DNA from: Planococcus shenhongbingii
GTDB lineage: Bacteria > Bacillota > Bacilli > Bacillales_A > Planococcaceae
Assembly (NCBI RefSeq): GCF_030413635.1
Contig: NZ_CP129235.1
Span: 2,294,001-2,358,000 of the forward strand
Direction of reading: 5' to 3'
DNA: 64,000 nt
Part shown: positions 684 to 13,963 of the stretch, piece after piece
Position numbering within the stretch: position 1 is the stretch's first letter
Layout: each line of letters begins with the position of its first letter
Made by a program: the position numbers and the translations under genes
The notes under the pieces: model-generated
Told to the model about the DNA's origin: nothing
Database searches by the model: none
The model's input: only the letters and a program-made list of their open reading frames with translations

Positions 684-1608
684 ACAACTGGATTTGGCAC
701 CGGTCGGATATTTGGTAATGGACCAATATTTGAGCATTACGGAAATCAATAAGATGATGATGAACCTAGTGGGGATTGAAAATGTCCCCCTCCATATACA
801 TGAGTTATTGACCGTTTCTTCCCGAATTTATTTTCAGACATATTTCATTCCGACGATTATCACTCATGGAGCCGTCAGTGAAATGGTATTAAAGTTAAAG
901 AATCCTTCGGGGTCTGTTCCAGTGTTGATGAACGCCAAAAAAAGCAAAGGTTTTTTCGAATGTGCATTTATGCAGATGCCGATCCGCAGTGAATACGAAA
1001 ATGAATTATTGAATGCCAAAAGAGATGCGGAAAGGATCAGCCAAGCGACAGAAGAAGCGAACCAAAAGCTTATACTATTGCTCAATGAAGTGGAGTCCAA
1101 ACAAGCTGAATTAAGTGTGTTAAACAGCCGTCTGAAGAAGTTGGCGGTCACCGATGTTCTCACTAACCTGAAAAACCGCCGTTATCTTGAAGAGTTTCTT
1201 CCACCGCTGATGAAAAATGGAACACTGTCAATCATGTTGATTGACATAGACTTTTTTAAAAAAATCAATGATACCTTCGGCCATTATGCAGGCGATGTCA
1301 TTCTACAAGAGCTGGCTCATGTGCTTGAAAGTTTAATTGACGATCCCGGATTTGCGATTCGCATTGGCGGCGAGGAATTTGTAGTGGTGTTGCCTGGAAT
1401 TGGTCAGTATGTAGTTGAAGTGATTGCTGAGAAAATCCGCAGAGCTGTCGAGGTTACCGATTGGTCATACGGTCAGATTACAGTCAGTATCGGAGTGGCT
1501 GAAAGTACACCAGGCATGACACTTTCAAGCTTATTGAAAATGGCAGATGGCGCTCTATACAATTCGAAAACCGAGGGTCGTAATCGAATAACTATAGCTA
1601 TACCCTAA
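676..1608 (+). CDS. PAS-coiled coil-GGDEF diguanylate cyclase paired with RsbQ
   Basis: 310 residues. N-terminal PAS-like domain (about 5-105, opening LAPVGYLVMDQYLSITEIN), a helical linker likely to form a coiled coil (about 108-155), then a GGDEF domain with TDVLTNLKNRR and an intact GGEEF active site near residues 231-235. It should condense two GTP to c-di-GMP. No RxxD inhibitory site is visible five residues before GGEEF. I chose ATG 676 over the in-frame ATG 667 because the GGGGGA ribosome site at 662-667 is correctly spaced only for 676. The first residues resemble the PAS domain of RsbP, but the PP2C phosphatase is replaced by a cyclase. It overlaps rsbQ, so both are co-translated. 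A terminator follows at once. Confidence 0.88.
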   Translation: MDRQLDLAPVGYLVMDQYLSITEINKMMMNLVGIENVPLHIHELLTVSSRIYFQTYFIPTIITHGAVSEMVLKLKNPSGSVPVLMNAKKSKGFFECAFMQMPIRSEYENELLNAKRDAERISQATEEANQKLILLLNEVESKQAELSVLNSRLKKLAVTDVLTNLKNRRYLEEFLPPLMKNGTLSIMLIDIDFFKKINDTFGHYAGDVILQELAHVLESLIDDPGFAIRIGGEEFVVVLPGIGQYVVEVIAEKIRRAVEVTDWSYGQITVSIGVAESTPGMTLSSLLKMADGALYNSKTEGRNRITIAIP

Positions 1609-1638
1609 CTTTCTGTTTAACGGACAGAAAGTTTTTTT
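1608..1638 (+). terminator. Intrinsic terminator of rsbQ-cyclase pair
   Basis: Nine-base perfect stem ACTTTCTGT / ACAGAAAGT (1608-1616 and 1624-1632) with a seven-base loop and a run of seven T. It begins at the stop codon of the cyclase gene. Confidence 0.9.
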
Positions 1639-2017
1639 GTGTCCCCTGCATGAACATGCTCTATAGGTTGGGAAAAAAGTAATCTAATTAGTACACGCGA
1701 TAGGTGTATTCCATCATTCTACTGTAAATCTACTTTTCTATTTGACGTAGACAATTTTAGAACAGAATAAATTTCACTACTATTAAAGAGCTCATGAAAG
1801 TATAATTGTACACACAAAAAGAGAGGAAATAAGCTTTAATCGACCTCTTTTTTACCTTCTCTTTTTGAACAGCTTCTGATAATGTTTGATATGTAAACCG
1901 AATTCATGCCAGAGTTTCTCTTTCGAATTCTGTAGCATCAGTACTTTGAATGCAACTTATTTTTTCAAGAAAATTAAAAGATTTCTTTTTCTAGAAATAC
2001 AGGGAGAACAAAGAAAT
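1639..2017. other. AT-rich intergenic region without a convincing gene
   Basis: About 380 bases. The only visible structure is a pair AAAGAGAGG / CCTCTTTTTT around 1817-1852, which could form a T-flanked hairpin on either strand and end transcription coming from the minus-strand genes on the right. An open frame on the plus strand from 1886 to 2089 has no ribosome site and no recognisable protein character, so I do not call it. Confidence 0.5.
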
Positions 2018-2049
2018 GGATGTAATATACTTAGTAATAAGTTACATTC
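2018..2049. repeat. 32-bp palindrome, copy A
   Basis: First and most degraded of four 32-bp elements with arms like GAATGTAACTTAA and TTAAGTTACATTC. Here the left arm starts GGATGTAA and the right end is AAGTTACATTC. It lies 7 bases past the stop codon of the small membrane-protein gene at 2057-2296. Confidence 0.6.
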
Positions 2050-2056
2050 AAAATCT

Positions 2057-2296
2057 TTATCTAAAGCTGACATAGTAAGCAGCAAATAAGATTGAACCAA
2101 TGAATGTTATGAAAATAACCAAAGCGAATCCTTTGTTTTTAACTTTGAAAACATCGCGATGATCTTTTAATAAAAATTCAGTCGCGTAGAAGAAAATTAA
2201 ACATCCTGCTATGAGTAATACCAAATTGGAAGCAGTTAAAGCATTTGAAAAGAATAAAATGGCTAATGAAATTGGAAAAATCAATAGTTTTAACAT
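2057..2296 (-). CDS. Small membrane protein, unrecognised
   Basis: 79 residues from ATG 2296, chosen because AGGTGG sits six bases upstream; an in-frame GTG lies three codons earlier. Three hydrophobic stretches are visible: about residues 2-18 (LLIFPISLAILFFSNAL), 22-42 and 55-76, with charged KDHRDVFKVKNK between the second and third. I do not recognise the family. It is the last of a row of tiny minus-strand membrane-protein genes, each separated by intergenic palindromes. Integral cytoplasmic-membrane location is inferred from hydrophobicity alone. Confidence 0.55.
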   Translation of the reverse strand: MLKLLIFPISLAILFFSNALTASNLVLLIAGCLIFFYATEFLLKDHRDVFKVKNKGFALVIFITFIGSILFAAYYVSFR

Positions 2297-2338
2297 GGCA
2301 CCCACCTGGCAGTATTTGTCTTCTTTCTTGTTGGTTCT

Positions 2339-2370
2339 TAATGTAACTCAATTGCTATTAAGCTACATTC
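2339..2370. repeat. 32-bp palindrome, copy B
   Basis: Same length and layout as the element at 2750-2781: AATGTAACTCAA (2340-2351) faces TTAAGCTACATT (2358-2369) with two mismatches in the arms. It lies 22 bases past the stop codon of the 2393 gene and 42 bases before the start of the 2296 gene. Confidence 0.75.
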
Positions 2371-2392
2371 ATTTCTTCGAAAATCAGGGTTC

Positions 2393-2638
2393 TTAGAACA
2401 TATAATAGTAAAGGACAAAAATGATACTTCCAGCAGCGATTGGCAGCCACATCCACTCCAATATTTTATTTTCAAAATGTCTTTCTTTCCCCGTTTTTTC
2501 AAAAAAAGAATTTGCTAACATTAAGGAAAATGAAGCAACAAAGAAAGAAATAACTGTAAATGAATTAGTTACGTGTAAATACAAGATAATGAGGGACCAA
2601 ATACTGAATCTAATGGTCGTGTAAGAAAAAATCTTCAC
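2393..2638 (-). CDS. Small membrane protein, unrecognised
   Basis: 81 residues from GTG 2638; AAGGAAG is placed seven bases before it, whereas the in-frame TTG at 2644 is too close to that site. Hydrophobic helices at about 11-26 (WSLIILYLHV), 29-43 and 62-81, with a charged segment FFEKTGKERHFENK between. No family recognised. The position in the small-membrane-protein row, with palindromes on both sides, is its main distinguishing feature. Confidence 0.5.
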   Translation of the reverse strand: MKIFSYTTIRFSIWSLIILYLHVTNSFTVISFFVASFSLMLANSFFEKTGKERHFENKILEWMWLPIAAGSIIFVLYYYMF

Positions 2639-2749
2639 CTTCAAACTTCCTTTCTAAATTTCTACAAGATGCAGGACTTTTATTTGTTCCAAATTCCCCT
2701 CCAAGGACTTCGTATGTCTTGTCGGAAAAATTTTTAAGGCGATACAGAC

Positions 2750-2781
2750 GAATGTAACTTAACTATCATTAAGTTACATTC
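2750..2781. repeat. 32-bp palindrome, copy C (perfect arms)
   Basis: Perfect 13-bp arms GAATGTAACTTAA (2750-2762) and TTAAGTTACATTC (2769-2781) around a six-base centre. It is the best-preserved of four copies in 1.6 kb. It lies 30 bases past the stop codon of the 2812 gene. There is no T-run on the minus strand after it, so a simple terminator role is doubtful. Confidence 0.85.
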
Positions 2782-2811
2782 GTTTTCTGATAACTGCACT
2801 TTCAACTAAGG

Positions 2812-2994
2812 TCATCTCTTTGATTTAGAAAATATCCCAGATAAAATGCCTAGGCCCAGCACTAAAAACCCTAAAGATGCTGAATATCGAAAGCTATTAT
2901 GATTCGAGTATCCTAATACATACACTAAACCAATACAGCAAACTATAAGCCCTAAGAAGAAAATGAAATTACTTATTTTTCCGAATGACAACAT
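2812..2994 (-). CDS. Small two-helix membrane protein, unrecognised
   Basis: 60 residues with two predicted transmembrane helices (about 9-27 and 36-53) separated by a short polar loop (YSNHNSFRYSA) and ending in a positive tail (FSKSKR). GAAGG lies about nine bases before ATG 2994. I do not recognise the family. It is flanked by the hairpin at 3032-3052 upstream and the palindrome 2750-2781 downstream. Confidence 0.5.
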   Translation of the reverse strand: MLSFGKISNFIFFLGLIVCCIGLVYVLGYSNHNSFRYSASLGFLVLGLGILSGIFSKSKR

Positions 2995-3031
2995 CGCTGG
3001 AACACCTTCTTAGTTTAAATTTCTAATTCGA

Positions 3032-3052
3032 TAAAAAGACTACCGGTAGTCT
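3032..3052 (-). terminator. Intrinsic terminator with ACTACCGGTAGT stem
   Basis: AGACTACCGGTAGTCT (3037-3052) is a perfect palindrome and is followed on the minus strand by CTTTTTAT, a suitable U-tract for the frameshifted gene upstream (3096-3502). A second ACTACCGGTA copy lies at 3074-3083 and could pair alternatively. Confidence 0.65.
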
Positions 3053-3095
3053 AATAATTTTTGTGCTTATTTAACTACCGGTAACTATTTGCTTT

Positions 3096-3502
3096 TTAAG
3101 ATATCAGGAGGCTAAATAAATCAAATTGAATTATTATAATCAAGGCTATTACTATTAAAGACATTTCACTGATGGTTAAGAGGGCTTGTTTTGGTTTTTG
3201 TGAGTATCTCCATTCGAAAATGGCCTGTACCAAGTGGTCCATTAACGTAAACAAAATCACCGAAACTAAAAAAATGTTTACCGAGGATCCTTTGGAAACG
3301 ATCAGGTAAAAGCTGATGATGTATACAACAGCAGCGATTGCGTTGATAGCTATATCAATTTTTCGGTGCAATTTATTTGTATAATTGAATGGGAAGAGGC
3401 CTTTTCTTTCTCGATCTTAAATATTTTTCTTAACACGGCATTAACGAGTGAAACTATAAGAGTTCCAACTAAAATAAATCCCGCAAATTTGACCCAAACC
3501 AT
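3096..3502 (-). pseudogene. DUF4181-like membrane protein, split by a -1 frameshift
   Basis: Frame one starts at ATG 3502 (GGAGGGG eight bases upstream) and reads MVWVKFAGFILVG...LRKIFKIEKE; the continuation KGLFPFNYTNKLHRKIDIAIN...AIFEWRYSQKPKQ is in another frame down to 3096. Together they match the layout of DUF4181 family proteins (LRK-x-F-K-x-E-K-K then SYN-x-VN-x-x-H-x-KID, later EWKY), as I remember that family. The break falls in a run of four A on the minus strand (T at 3402-3405); one additional A would restore a 135-residue protein with about four membrane helices. Either a real inactivating deletion, or a sequencing error. The 91-residue second half read alone would need a TTG start without a ribosome site. 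Confidence 0.7.
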
Positions 3503-3559
3503 CTCACGGCCCCCTCCAGTAGTTCATCAAAAATTCCTTGCATACTTTTCATCCAATCT

Positions 3560-3591
3560 GAATGGAACTTAACTGCCCATAAATTACATTC
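3560..3591. repeat. 32-bp palindrome, copy D
   Basis: GAATGGAACTTAA (3560-3572) faces ATAAATTACATTC (3579-3591) with three mismatches; the overall length and the outer GAATG/CATTC ends match copy C. It starts five bases past the stop codon of the 3597 gene. Confidence 0.7.
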
Positions 3592-3596
3592 CGTTA

Positions 3597-3866
3597 CTAG
3601 TAAAAGGCGTATGTGAAAATAAGAAACGATAGGGCAAGCAGACCCGATTTGATCCAAATTATTTTATTGCTAATACCAATCTTTTTTTCTAAATGATAAA
3701 TGTAATGGACTAGTATCATAAATCCAGCAAAAGTTAATAAGAAATTGGGCGTACTCGTACTTCCGACGCGCGATATATATTCTATAAGTCCAAATGCCAG
3801 TAGGAGCATGCCGATGGAAGCAATTATCATGTAGATGTAAGAACTACCAGTCTTTTTATTCTCCAT
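3597..3866 (-). CDS. Small membrane protein, unrecognised
   Basis: 89 residues from ATG 3866, which has a GGAGGAG site seven bases upstream (an in-frame GTG is at 3872). Three hydrophobic helices at about 10-29 (YIYMIIASIGMLLLAFG), 39-56 and 70-87, and a charged loop HLEKKIGISNK. Family not recognised. First gene of the minus-strand row of tiny membrane proteins; the palindrome 3560-3591 starts directly behind its stop codon. Confidence 0.6.
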   Translation of the reverse strand: MENKKTGSSYIYMIIASIGMLLLAFGLIEYISRVGSTSTPNFLLTFAGFMILVHYIYHLEKKIGISNKIIWIKSGLLALSFLIFTYAFY

Positions 3867-4002
3867 ACTCACTCCTCCTCTCCAAGGTCTATGCTTCTCA
3901 AATTCAGTCCTATTTTCGTCTACTTCCTTTTTCTTCGCTAGTTCATATACTTATTTTACCATTCCAGATTTCTAATAATAGATGCCTTTGCAATAACTTG
4001 TA
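3867..4002. other. Intergenic, probable promoter region of the small membrane-protein row
   Basis: AT-rich stretch between the start of the 3597 gene and the tandem terminators at 4003-4106. No open frame with a ribosome site was found. I could not fix a confident -35/-10 pair. Confidence 0.35.
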
Positions 4003-4043
4003 ATAAAAAAGCGTTCGTAAAAGTACAGGTTTCCGTACGCTTT
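4003..4043 (-). terminator. Second of two tandem terminators after the met operon
   Basis: On the minus strand AAAGCGT ... ACGCTTTTTTA forms a stem around an A/T-rich loop and ends in six T. It contains the same TTTTACGAACG segment as the first terminator at 4064-4106, suggesting the pair arose by duplication. Confidence 0.6.
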
Positions 4044-4063
4044 AAAAAAGGCTGAAAAACAAC

Positions 4064-4106
4064 AAAAAAACGTTCGTAAAAGTGCCAAAACACTTTACGA
4101 ACGTTT
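4064..4106 (-). terminator. Intrinsic terminator of metNIQ-dehydrogenase operon
   Basis: CGTTCGTAAAGTG (minus strand, 4091-4103) pairs with CACTTTTACGAACG (4071-4084) with one bulged base and is followed by seven T. A further TTTACGAACG copy at 4124-4133 lies just upstream. Confidence 0.9.
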
Positions 4107-4206
4107 ACTAATTTTCATTGACATTTACGAACGGTATTAACAATGATTTTTGAGTTGTACGGTTTATGTTTTCAACAAGTTAAACTCTCTAAGCTAGACT
4201 TTATGT

Positions 4207-7852: not shown

Positions 7853-8005
7853 AATAAAAAATGCCTCTTTCATAAAGAAAGAGGCACCGAATGGATTAGG
7901 CTTATCTCTCAGAATGAAATCATTCTGCAGGAATTAGCACCTTCTCAGATCGCTCTGTAGGTTGCTGGACGTCATAGGGCCTGTCCCTCGGTCTCTCTTG
8001 ATAAT
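7853..8005 (-). promoter_or_regulatory. SAM-I (S-box) riboswitch with terminator, controls metNIQ operon
   Basis: Reading the minus strand, the aptamer begins at about 8005 with ATTATCAAGAGAGACCGAGG, continues through GGACAGGCCC, AGCAACCTAC and AAGGTGCTAATTCC, and closes P1 with AGAGATAAG at 7901-7909: the hallmark S-box segments. The expression platform is a terminator stem GTGCCTCTTTC / GAAAGAGGCA with a T6 run (7853-7887). Family behaviour: SAM binding stabilises termination, so transport genes are on when methionine/SAM is scarce. Confidence 0.97.
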
Positions 8006-8038
8006 GTTCCATATGCAATTGTGTTTAACATGTTTCTA

Positions 8039-13743: not shown

Positions 13744-13791
13744 AGGCCCATCGGGACAAATCCCGAGCACAACAAACTGCATACCGTTTTC

Positions 13792-13963
13792 TGCACTGGG
13801 GGTGCCCGATTTTCGGCTGAGATGCAAGCGTAAGCTTCGATCCCTTATGACTCGATCCAGATAATACTGGCGTGAGGAAGTGCGGTGACTATCCGCAATT
13901 AGATCTTTCTGAATTTATTTGCATGGAATAGTGGCTGCATCTTCACGGGTGCAGCCTTTTTTT
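13792..13963 (+). promoter_or_regulatory. TPP (THI-box) riboswitch with terminator, controls ykoFEDC
   Basis: Aptamer 13792-13884: ACTGGGGGTGCCC, CGGCTGAGATGC, then GATCCAGATAATACTGGCG and TGAGGAAGTGC, the conserved TPP-binding blocks, with P1 closing GCACT/AGTGC. The expression platform is a stem GGCTGCA / TGCAGCC (13933-13939, 13950-13956) with seven T. TPP binding is expected to favour termination so the transporter is made when thiamine pyrophosphate is low. Confidence 0.96.

Follow-up and report, generated by a model that had tools for sequence, protein, structure and literature searches.

In integrons and CALINs, small cassettes are strung together in arrays, every gene is followed by a site, and a tyrosine recombinase and its attI-like site are linked to the array; arrays that are free of a recombinase occur as well (PMC9024848). 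The pdif (dif) modules of Acinetobacter are small gene modules carried on Rep_3 plasmids and moved by XerC/XerD (PMC13141974). The pdif sites are described as having unlike XerC and XerD halves, an alternating orientation, a dependence on host Xer, and a 6-bp centre for which identity or near-identity is required; in the events detected the spacers were identical or had one mismatch, and single modules were proposed to be exchanged through a cointegrate that forms at one matching pair and is resolved at a second (PMC13141974). The arrays described here are found across the genus Planococcus. Their genus-wide cassette arrangement is real, and among tyrosine-recombinase cassette systems it is possibly a new kind. 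In engineered recombinase-mediated cassette exchange (RMCE), a cassette lies between heterospecific lox or FRT sites which do not recombine with each other and which match the sites of the partner.

The Planococcus arrays resemble integrons in their layout, in a linked recombinase (here INT) with a possible attI-like site and in the occurrence of arrays without a recombinase. They differ in their near-constant 32-bp sites, in centres which follow position, and in genes directed at the recombinase end. The pdif modules are alike in their small size, 6-bp centres and proposed cointegrate exchange scheme; in Planococcus, however, the two arms of a site mirror each other, site orientation follows that of the genes, there is a small linked recombinase, START and END elements are present, the centres are ordered, and arrays are found in chromosomes too. 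In the open-access PMC literature, no paper was found that combines Planococcus, plasmid, tyrosine recombinase and palindrome, and among the matches listed none was on these arrays by its title or abstract opening.

The window (the whole stretch of 64,000 nucleotides from Planococcus shenhongbingii that was analysed) contains one such array on the minus strand. A sequence-only reading had reported four 32-bp palindromes, each behind its own membrane-protein gene, and all four were confirmed. In gene sense the array begins with the START gene (3597..3872), an ORF of 91 aa from the first start codon which encodes a small membrane protein before S1; this START region is related to the START of another array, L149 (shared START group #56). 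S1 (3560..3591) has the core GGGCAG, one letter off the GTGCAG of slot 1. In the S1-S2 segment (2782-3559) the rule of one membrane-protein gene per palindrome failed, as three ORFs are present: a small ORF of 50 aa (3350..3502; ORF list), a DUF4181 gene (3096..3371; PF13789, E 8.7e-11), and immediately ahead of S2 a 60-aa membrane ORF (2812..2994; ORF list). A counterpart 79% identical to the DUF4181 protein was found between GTGCAG and TGTGAA in L150, which is the corresponding slot. S2 (2750..2781) occupies the TGTGAA slot with the core TGATAG, more than one letter away from TGTGAA. It is followed by a cassette gene for a membrane protein of 83 aa (2393..2644), by S3 (2339..2370; core TAGCAA), by a second cassette gene, for a membrane protein of 82 aa (2057..2305), and by S-END (2018..2049; core TACTAA, of the NNNTAA class). 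Both cassette genes were taken from the ORF list and gave no Pfam match. A third right-arm copy at 1948..1959 (minus strand; TAAGTTGCATTC in gene sense), missing from the sequence-only list, lies at +58 after S-END and is a worn END element with 30 of 64 surrounding consensus letters.

As reported, only the third palindrome is perfect, with 13 complementary arm pairs of 13 (2750) compared to 9 (2018), 10 (2339) and 10 (3560), and the sites lie 7 (2018), 22 (2339), 30 (2750) and 5 (3560) bases from the stop codon. With up to 3 mismatches the consensus matched three of the four palindromes, the copy at 2018 exceeding this limit, and there were no matches in 100 shuffles. The window array has the canonical order of START gene, S1-S3, S-END and third arm; its cores are worn and INT is not adjacent. 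The four palindromes are one worn copy of a genus-wide array. No RNA family was found at gathering score across the window array. Elsewhere in the window, an ordinary SAM riboswitch (7899-8007, minus) and an ordinary TPP riboswitch (13788-13895, plus) were observed.

A matrix built from the four window copies scored these at 33.5-42.3 bits, while the best score anywhere else in the 64-kb window was 10.1. Sites with a score of at least 20 were kept from 206 sequences, whose reversed versions scored no higher than 17, a value reached at two places; the catalogue after duplicate removal contained 448 unique sites. Of these, 253 could be oriented via a clear neighbouring ORF, while 69 edge sites and 126 unclear sites were left out of the orientation step. 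In gene sense the site consists of near-constant 12-bp arms, GAATGTAACTTA and TAAGTTACATTC, which flank an asymmetric core. Arm conservation is lowest at position 10, where T was found in 225 of the 253 oriented sites. The asymmetry of the centre has the same direction as the gene, with A at position 18 in 221 of 253. The site typically lies directly 3' of a small sense ORF, at a median of 34 bases from the stop codon (253 oriented sites).

The 3.98-Mb window genome has 20 places at up to 3 mismatches (control 0) and 24 with a looser pattern (control 1); a matrix scan of the window and of six regions fetched for pattern matches gave 26. Rather than being scattered at random over the genome, all places found fall into seven clusters at 1.822-1.915 and 2.269-2.298 Mb. 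Sites and arrays are present in nearly all Planococcus genomes examined and in many of their plasmids. When 120 genomes were scanned, matches were found in 45, namely the window genome and 44 of the 45 others of Planococcus, and in none of the 74 genomes from other genera. A named collection gave at least 118 matching stretches; of the 80 matches listed, 79 were from Planococcus or Planomicrobium and one was from Gracilibacillus. In the plasmid collection 23 records, of which 22 are from Planococcus and 1 is from Lysinibacillus, matched over at least 80% of the site, and no phage record did so. One exact site was seen in a 79-kb IMG/VR contig filed as viral (L169). With the inner arms left open, the pattern was found at more than two places per genome in Planococcus only (261 family and 398 class genomes, in overlapping sets). 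In this the genus differs from the other genera whose plasmids carry small tyrosine recombinases of the INT family. Outside the genus, an array also occurs in L061 from Gracilibacillus boraciitolerans; it carries GTGCAG, TGTGAA and TATCAA with a START of group #4, and was probably transferred.

Arrays end in a characteristic way. The END element, GATACATTC, is a right-arm variant past the last site, with an offset of +62 in 63 of 71 cases. The element was found behind 69 of 161 last sites versus 2 of 277 other sites; the remaining 92 last sites gave no END match, many of the loci being cut. On four plasmids (L170, L207, L210, L211) the order runs from a MerR gene through S1 to S-END plus END and then INT, so that the END site is positioned ahead of INT. 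The Rep gene is next past INT on L170, and likewise on L211 around the circle. pNM8, pNM11 and the first repeat unit of pFN9D each contain one site, END and INT. Other repeated elements neighbour the arrays. A second palindrome family, CGTTCGTAAAA-GTGTAC-TTTTACGAACG (11-6-11), lies upstream of many arrays, including window positions 4007-4138, and at ten places in the window genome (G000 C1); one window copy with 3 mismatches is at 4012..4039 on the minus strand (G000 C1:2298012-2298039). This family is perhaps the site of another recombinase. As CGTTCGTAAAAGTGTACTTTTACGAACG it is frequent upstream of S1, its 11-mers occurring in up to 31 of 53 START families. Downstream of many arrays, dif-like sites of the AGTTTACATAT-N6-TTATCGGAAG type with variable centres were observed (for example +547 past the last site in L136 and +119 in L148). 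These are possibly a Gram-positive counterpart of pdif sites.

The cores of the arrays come in a fixed order. Arrays were oriented by core asymmetry, and with one mismatch allowed in the first three classes, the 127 arrays with two or more sites gave 389 pairs concordant with the order GTGCAG < TGTGAA < TAGCAA < NNNTAA versus 25 discordant. Permutation of cores within arrays gave a mean of 207 pairs (minimum 164). Identical cores inside one array were found in 2 of 515 pairs, compared to 67 expected (minimum 44). The order was also seen in independence sets, each made of 45-48 arrays among which no START or cassette matched another (70% over 100 bp). Twenty sets were run, and in the six that were printed 104-133 pairs were concordant versus 6-14 discordant, with permutation means of 56-73; exact classes gave 87-110 versus 2-9. 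Where the sequence extends at least 1500 bp upstream (89 arrays), 79 arrays open with a site of the GTGCAG class. At last sites with END in view (n=76), the class was NNNTAA in 49, TAGCAA in 15, TGTGAA in 5 and another in 7.

Comparison between arrays showed where their contents part. For 615 internal homology ends, 75.3% lay within 5 bp of a site versus 8.1% expected, and arrays with a common START mostly diverge in their cassettes past S1. START #1 was found in five arrays with five different first cassettes; two more stop at S1, and two are pieces of the array of the window genome. Plasmids L170 and L211 are 97.5% identical until one base beyond S1 and have different cassettes from there. 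Cassette #5 (496 bp) occupies the GTGCAG-TGTGAA slot behind four different STARTs. Among 16 cassette pairs at least 97% identical in which both neighbours differ, the left core was kept in 14 and the right in 12, whereas random cassettes share the left core at a frequency of 0.20 and the right at 0.14. The binomial p values (1e-8 left, 6e-8 right) are too small, because these 16 closest pairs are not independent: one was counted twice via the dimeric record L172 and several share cassette #5.

Core-keeping was found in 29 (left) and 20 (right) of 46 pairs at 92-97% identity, in 23 and 22 of 48 pairs at 85-92%, and in 16 and 13 of 46 pairs at 75-85%. Over all 162 such pairs, slot number alone would give 43 agreements on the left and 29 on the right. 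At junction sites the cores agree in 203 of 480 (random 13%). Since slot-keeping fades with divergence and junction cores agree only to this extent, either core matching is not absolute or cores have been rewritten; by these comparisons recent moves obey the slot rule strongly, and over time the rule leaks. Similar cassettes were found to bear different centres in different slots. That a cassette carries its own centre was considered and set aside: at junctions the core was the same in 122 of 191 cases on the right and 81 of 289 on the left, but START and END confound this difference, and among near-identical pairs the left core was kept no less often than the right. The 31-kb record L172 (pPA05-1) was likewise rejected as a case of in-situ exchange. 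Its halves are 99.65% identical, which makes it a dimer or an assembly artefact, and it was therefore not used as such a case.

The recombinase linked to these arrays, INT, is a protein of about 187 aa with a single Phage_integrase domain (PF00589; 74.9, 77.0, 71.9 and 77.0 bits for four INTs against a cut-off of 27.1). In 17 aligned sequences R47, H135, R138, H161 and Y170 are invariant, which we take to be the catalytic R, H-x-x-R, H and Y of tyrosine recombinases. Judged by its domain and residues, INT is a tyrosine recombinase, and the solved structures nearest to it by sequence are Xer proteins. The site was present on 15 of 15 INT-bearing Planococcus plasmids, and 7 of 23 site-bearing plasmids gave no INT match at the cut-off used. 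Of 18 Planococcus INT loci fetched, 17 have an upstream palindrome and, at +60/61, a third arm that agrees in 9-10 of 11 letters, the exception being L238. At seven further plasmid INT loci, five have an upstream palindrome of the same geometry. The arms are similar in Rummeliibacillus and P. lenghuensis, while Peribacillus and Solibacillus have a palindrome of equal geometry with different inner arms; in B. velezensis one with other inner arms is 567 bp away with a gene in between. Between site and third arm, Peribacillus has a promoter-like TTGACT-18-TATACT (3 found, 1.0 expected), and a promoter scan of P. lenghuensis gave no such pair. Loci of INT relatives often lack a nearby site of this kind: upstream palindromes of this geometry were absent from the other two of the seven loci, those of B. 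smithii and B. subtilis (L218, L220), and none similar was found in L222. Loci of other genera (L241-L250) had a similar palindrome in 2 of 10, and the distant relatives L190-L194 were rejected as site carriers, having no palindromes of this type. More generally, INT homologues with 43-77% identity occur on plasmids of other genera, mostly Bacillales, some with one same-geometry palindrome upstream. The Lysinibacillus capsici plasmid pFN9D (L173) has an INT identical to that of pNM8 in a repeated unit of about 13.5 kb, with six INT places; it also carries cfr and lsa(B) annotations.

At E<=1e-35, INT is present in 18 of 46 Planococcus genomes and was not found in the other 28, the window genome included. 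Genomes with INT have a mean of 21.1 sites versus 11.1 in those without (p 0.02). In the window genome three weak matches were found: a relic, a homologue at 36% (1.871 Mb), and a match at 27% inside a 308-aa frame (2.474 Mb). The relic lies about 650 bases past the last site of the 2.269-Mb array (L020 7815-7985; G000 C1:2267814-2267984) and is broken by internal stops, with 58% identity over 50 residues.

An ORF was obtained in 420 of 427 array segments (START included), and these fall into 254 protein families at 30% identity. The median length of internal cassettes is 496 bp. In 221 of 271 the ORF selected runs in the sense direction, a count that is biased because antisense ORFs were weighted at 0.6 of their length in the choice. 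The small membrane-protein genes which had been noted in the window are not the rule elsewhere: a hydrophobic segment was found in 59 of 128 sampled cassette families, and many cassette genes do not encode membrane proteins. In a Pfam sample of 100 proteins, one from each of 100 out of the 128 families, matches were made to 36 Pfam families (25 shown, each of these in one or two proteins), including GNAT, barstar, WapI-like, SUKH and thioredoxin-like. A few of the family-matched proteins resemble immunity proteins (barstar, WapI-like, SUKH). PADLOC gave 2 families with one protein each. Comparison across arrays found no strict slot specificity of gene families.

From these comparisons it is probable that INT recombines sites with matching cores, with cassettes swapping slot for slot in a natural analogue of RMCE. 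The palindromes would be core recombination sites (12-bp inverted arms with an 8-bp centre, or 13-6-13) of a small plasmid-borne INT, and the proposed array plan would read START gene, S1 (GTGCAG), cassette, S2 (TGTGAA), cassette, S3 (TAGCAA) and so on to S-END (NNNTAA) plus the third arm, followed on plasmids by INT. Two INT molecules would sit on the arms of one site, and strand exchange would require matching central letters. Pairing could then take place with a site of like type in another array or plasmid; a cointegrate formed at one matching pair and resolved at the next would swap the intervening cassette. As sites within an array differ, neighbouring sites would be unable to delete each other, which fits the scarcity of identical pairs. 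Exchange at like sites would also hold the order constant across the genus, because an array ordered otherwise would acquire direct repeats and lose DNA. Slot changes would require a second, rarer process. The arrays may have originated in plasmid multimer resolution, and INT may repress itself at END. The worn window array, if still mobile, would rely on INT from elsewhere. The comparative evidence supports this proposal through the sites, their order, the breakpoints, the slot-keeping of recent transfers, the linkage to INT, and the altered arms at equal geometry near INT relatives; from it we infer INT as catalyst, core matching and the cointegrate route. Like engineered RMCE, the arrays would place a cassette between two non-cross-recombining sites which match those of a partner, and comparative evidence points to heterospecific flanks and slot-keeping replacement. 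They differ in being natural and in forming a whole ordered series of site types. The reading of gene plus palindrome as a cassette, and of the palindrome as a recombination site, is strongly supported: sites are clustered, usually right behind a small sense ORF; species differ in cassette content, and the breakpoints fall at the sites; and a recombinase gene is found together with a site copy of its own.

Other explanations account for parts of this evidence. An integron-like single-strand route, in which INT recombines a folded hairpin, END serves as attI and each cassette enters at END with its own site, would fit the small cassettes with a site 3' of the gene, the position of INT beside the END site on plasmids and the single-site platforms. 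Folding would also fit the 95% of arm pairs that are complementary and the symmetric double changes in the arms (18 versus 5.6 by chance). However, T10A in the left arm without a partner change is frequent (52 A-A cells among 462 sites) and the excess of G-T over A-C arm mismatches (69 versus 45) is a weak strand preference, so that the arm-pair changes give mixed evidence and single-strand folding was not adopted. A stem of 12-13 bp would fit about one recombinase, and against the integron integrase model (NCBIfam TIGR02249) INTs scored 29.2, 31.1, 31.0 and 33.3 bits, far from the cut-off of 265. Moreover, the sites do not behave as variable attC sites travelling with their cassettes, since the arms are near-constant (253 sites) and the centres change with the slot. 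This route is therefore unlikely. That host XerC/XerD act on the sites as in pdif modules, with INT a bystander, is highly improbable, although the logic is similar, the centres are of 6 bp, L170 (the plasmid tested) has a Rep3 initiator, and dif-like sites lie near arrays. The symmetric arms are unlike XerC/XerD boxes, the nearby dif-like sites are a separate sequence, and orientation does not alternate. The site also precedes INT with a third arm, and the arms differ near INT relatives. To our knowledge Xer recombinases are near-universal, yet more than two sites per genome were found in one genus only.

The palindromes might instead follow small co-regulated genes as elements that act at the level of RNA or regulation (mRNA stabilisers, attenuators or operators), with the swaps arising otherwise. 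Their symmetry and usual place 3' of a sense ORF would suit hairpins that protect 3' ends, and such side roles are possible. As the main function this is very unlikely, as it leaves the breakpoints, the order of centres, END and the INT linkage unexplained. The sequence-only reading had rightly judged them not to be ordinary terminators: a T-run is absent, and the 2 terminator-like matches in window positions 1600-4200 (1.5 expected) are both away from the sites. A mobile palindromic repeat of the REP/MITE type spread behind genes would account for numerous near-identical intergenic palindromes, but the seven clusters, the ordered centres and the mostly constant orientation to genes make it exceedingly improbable. 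By the features tested, the system belongs neither to the integrons nor to the pdif modules of Acinetobacter.

Slot-for-slot exchange by INT may extend further. Tentatively, and with slightly less than even confidence, we suggest a system separate from integrons and pdif modules in which a dedicated recombinase would read address-coded sites. The fixed order would then be a genus-wide convention, slot n would be traded with slot n between any plasmid or chromosome, and arrays which break the order would be purged by deletion. If true, Planococcus and its plasmids would run a gene-exchange market that is not expected to be visible to integron finders based on IntI and attC. Such a system would amount to a natural version of a hand-built genome-engineering tool, with a compact recombinase and many site types, and it would raise the question of whether a recombination rule alone can fix the order of gene slots across a genus.
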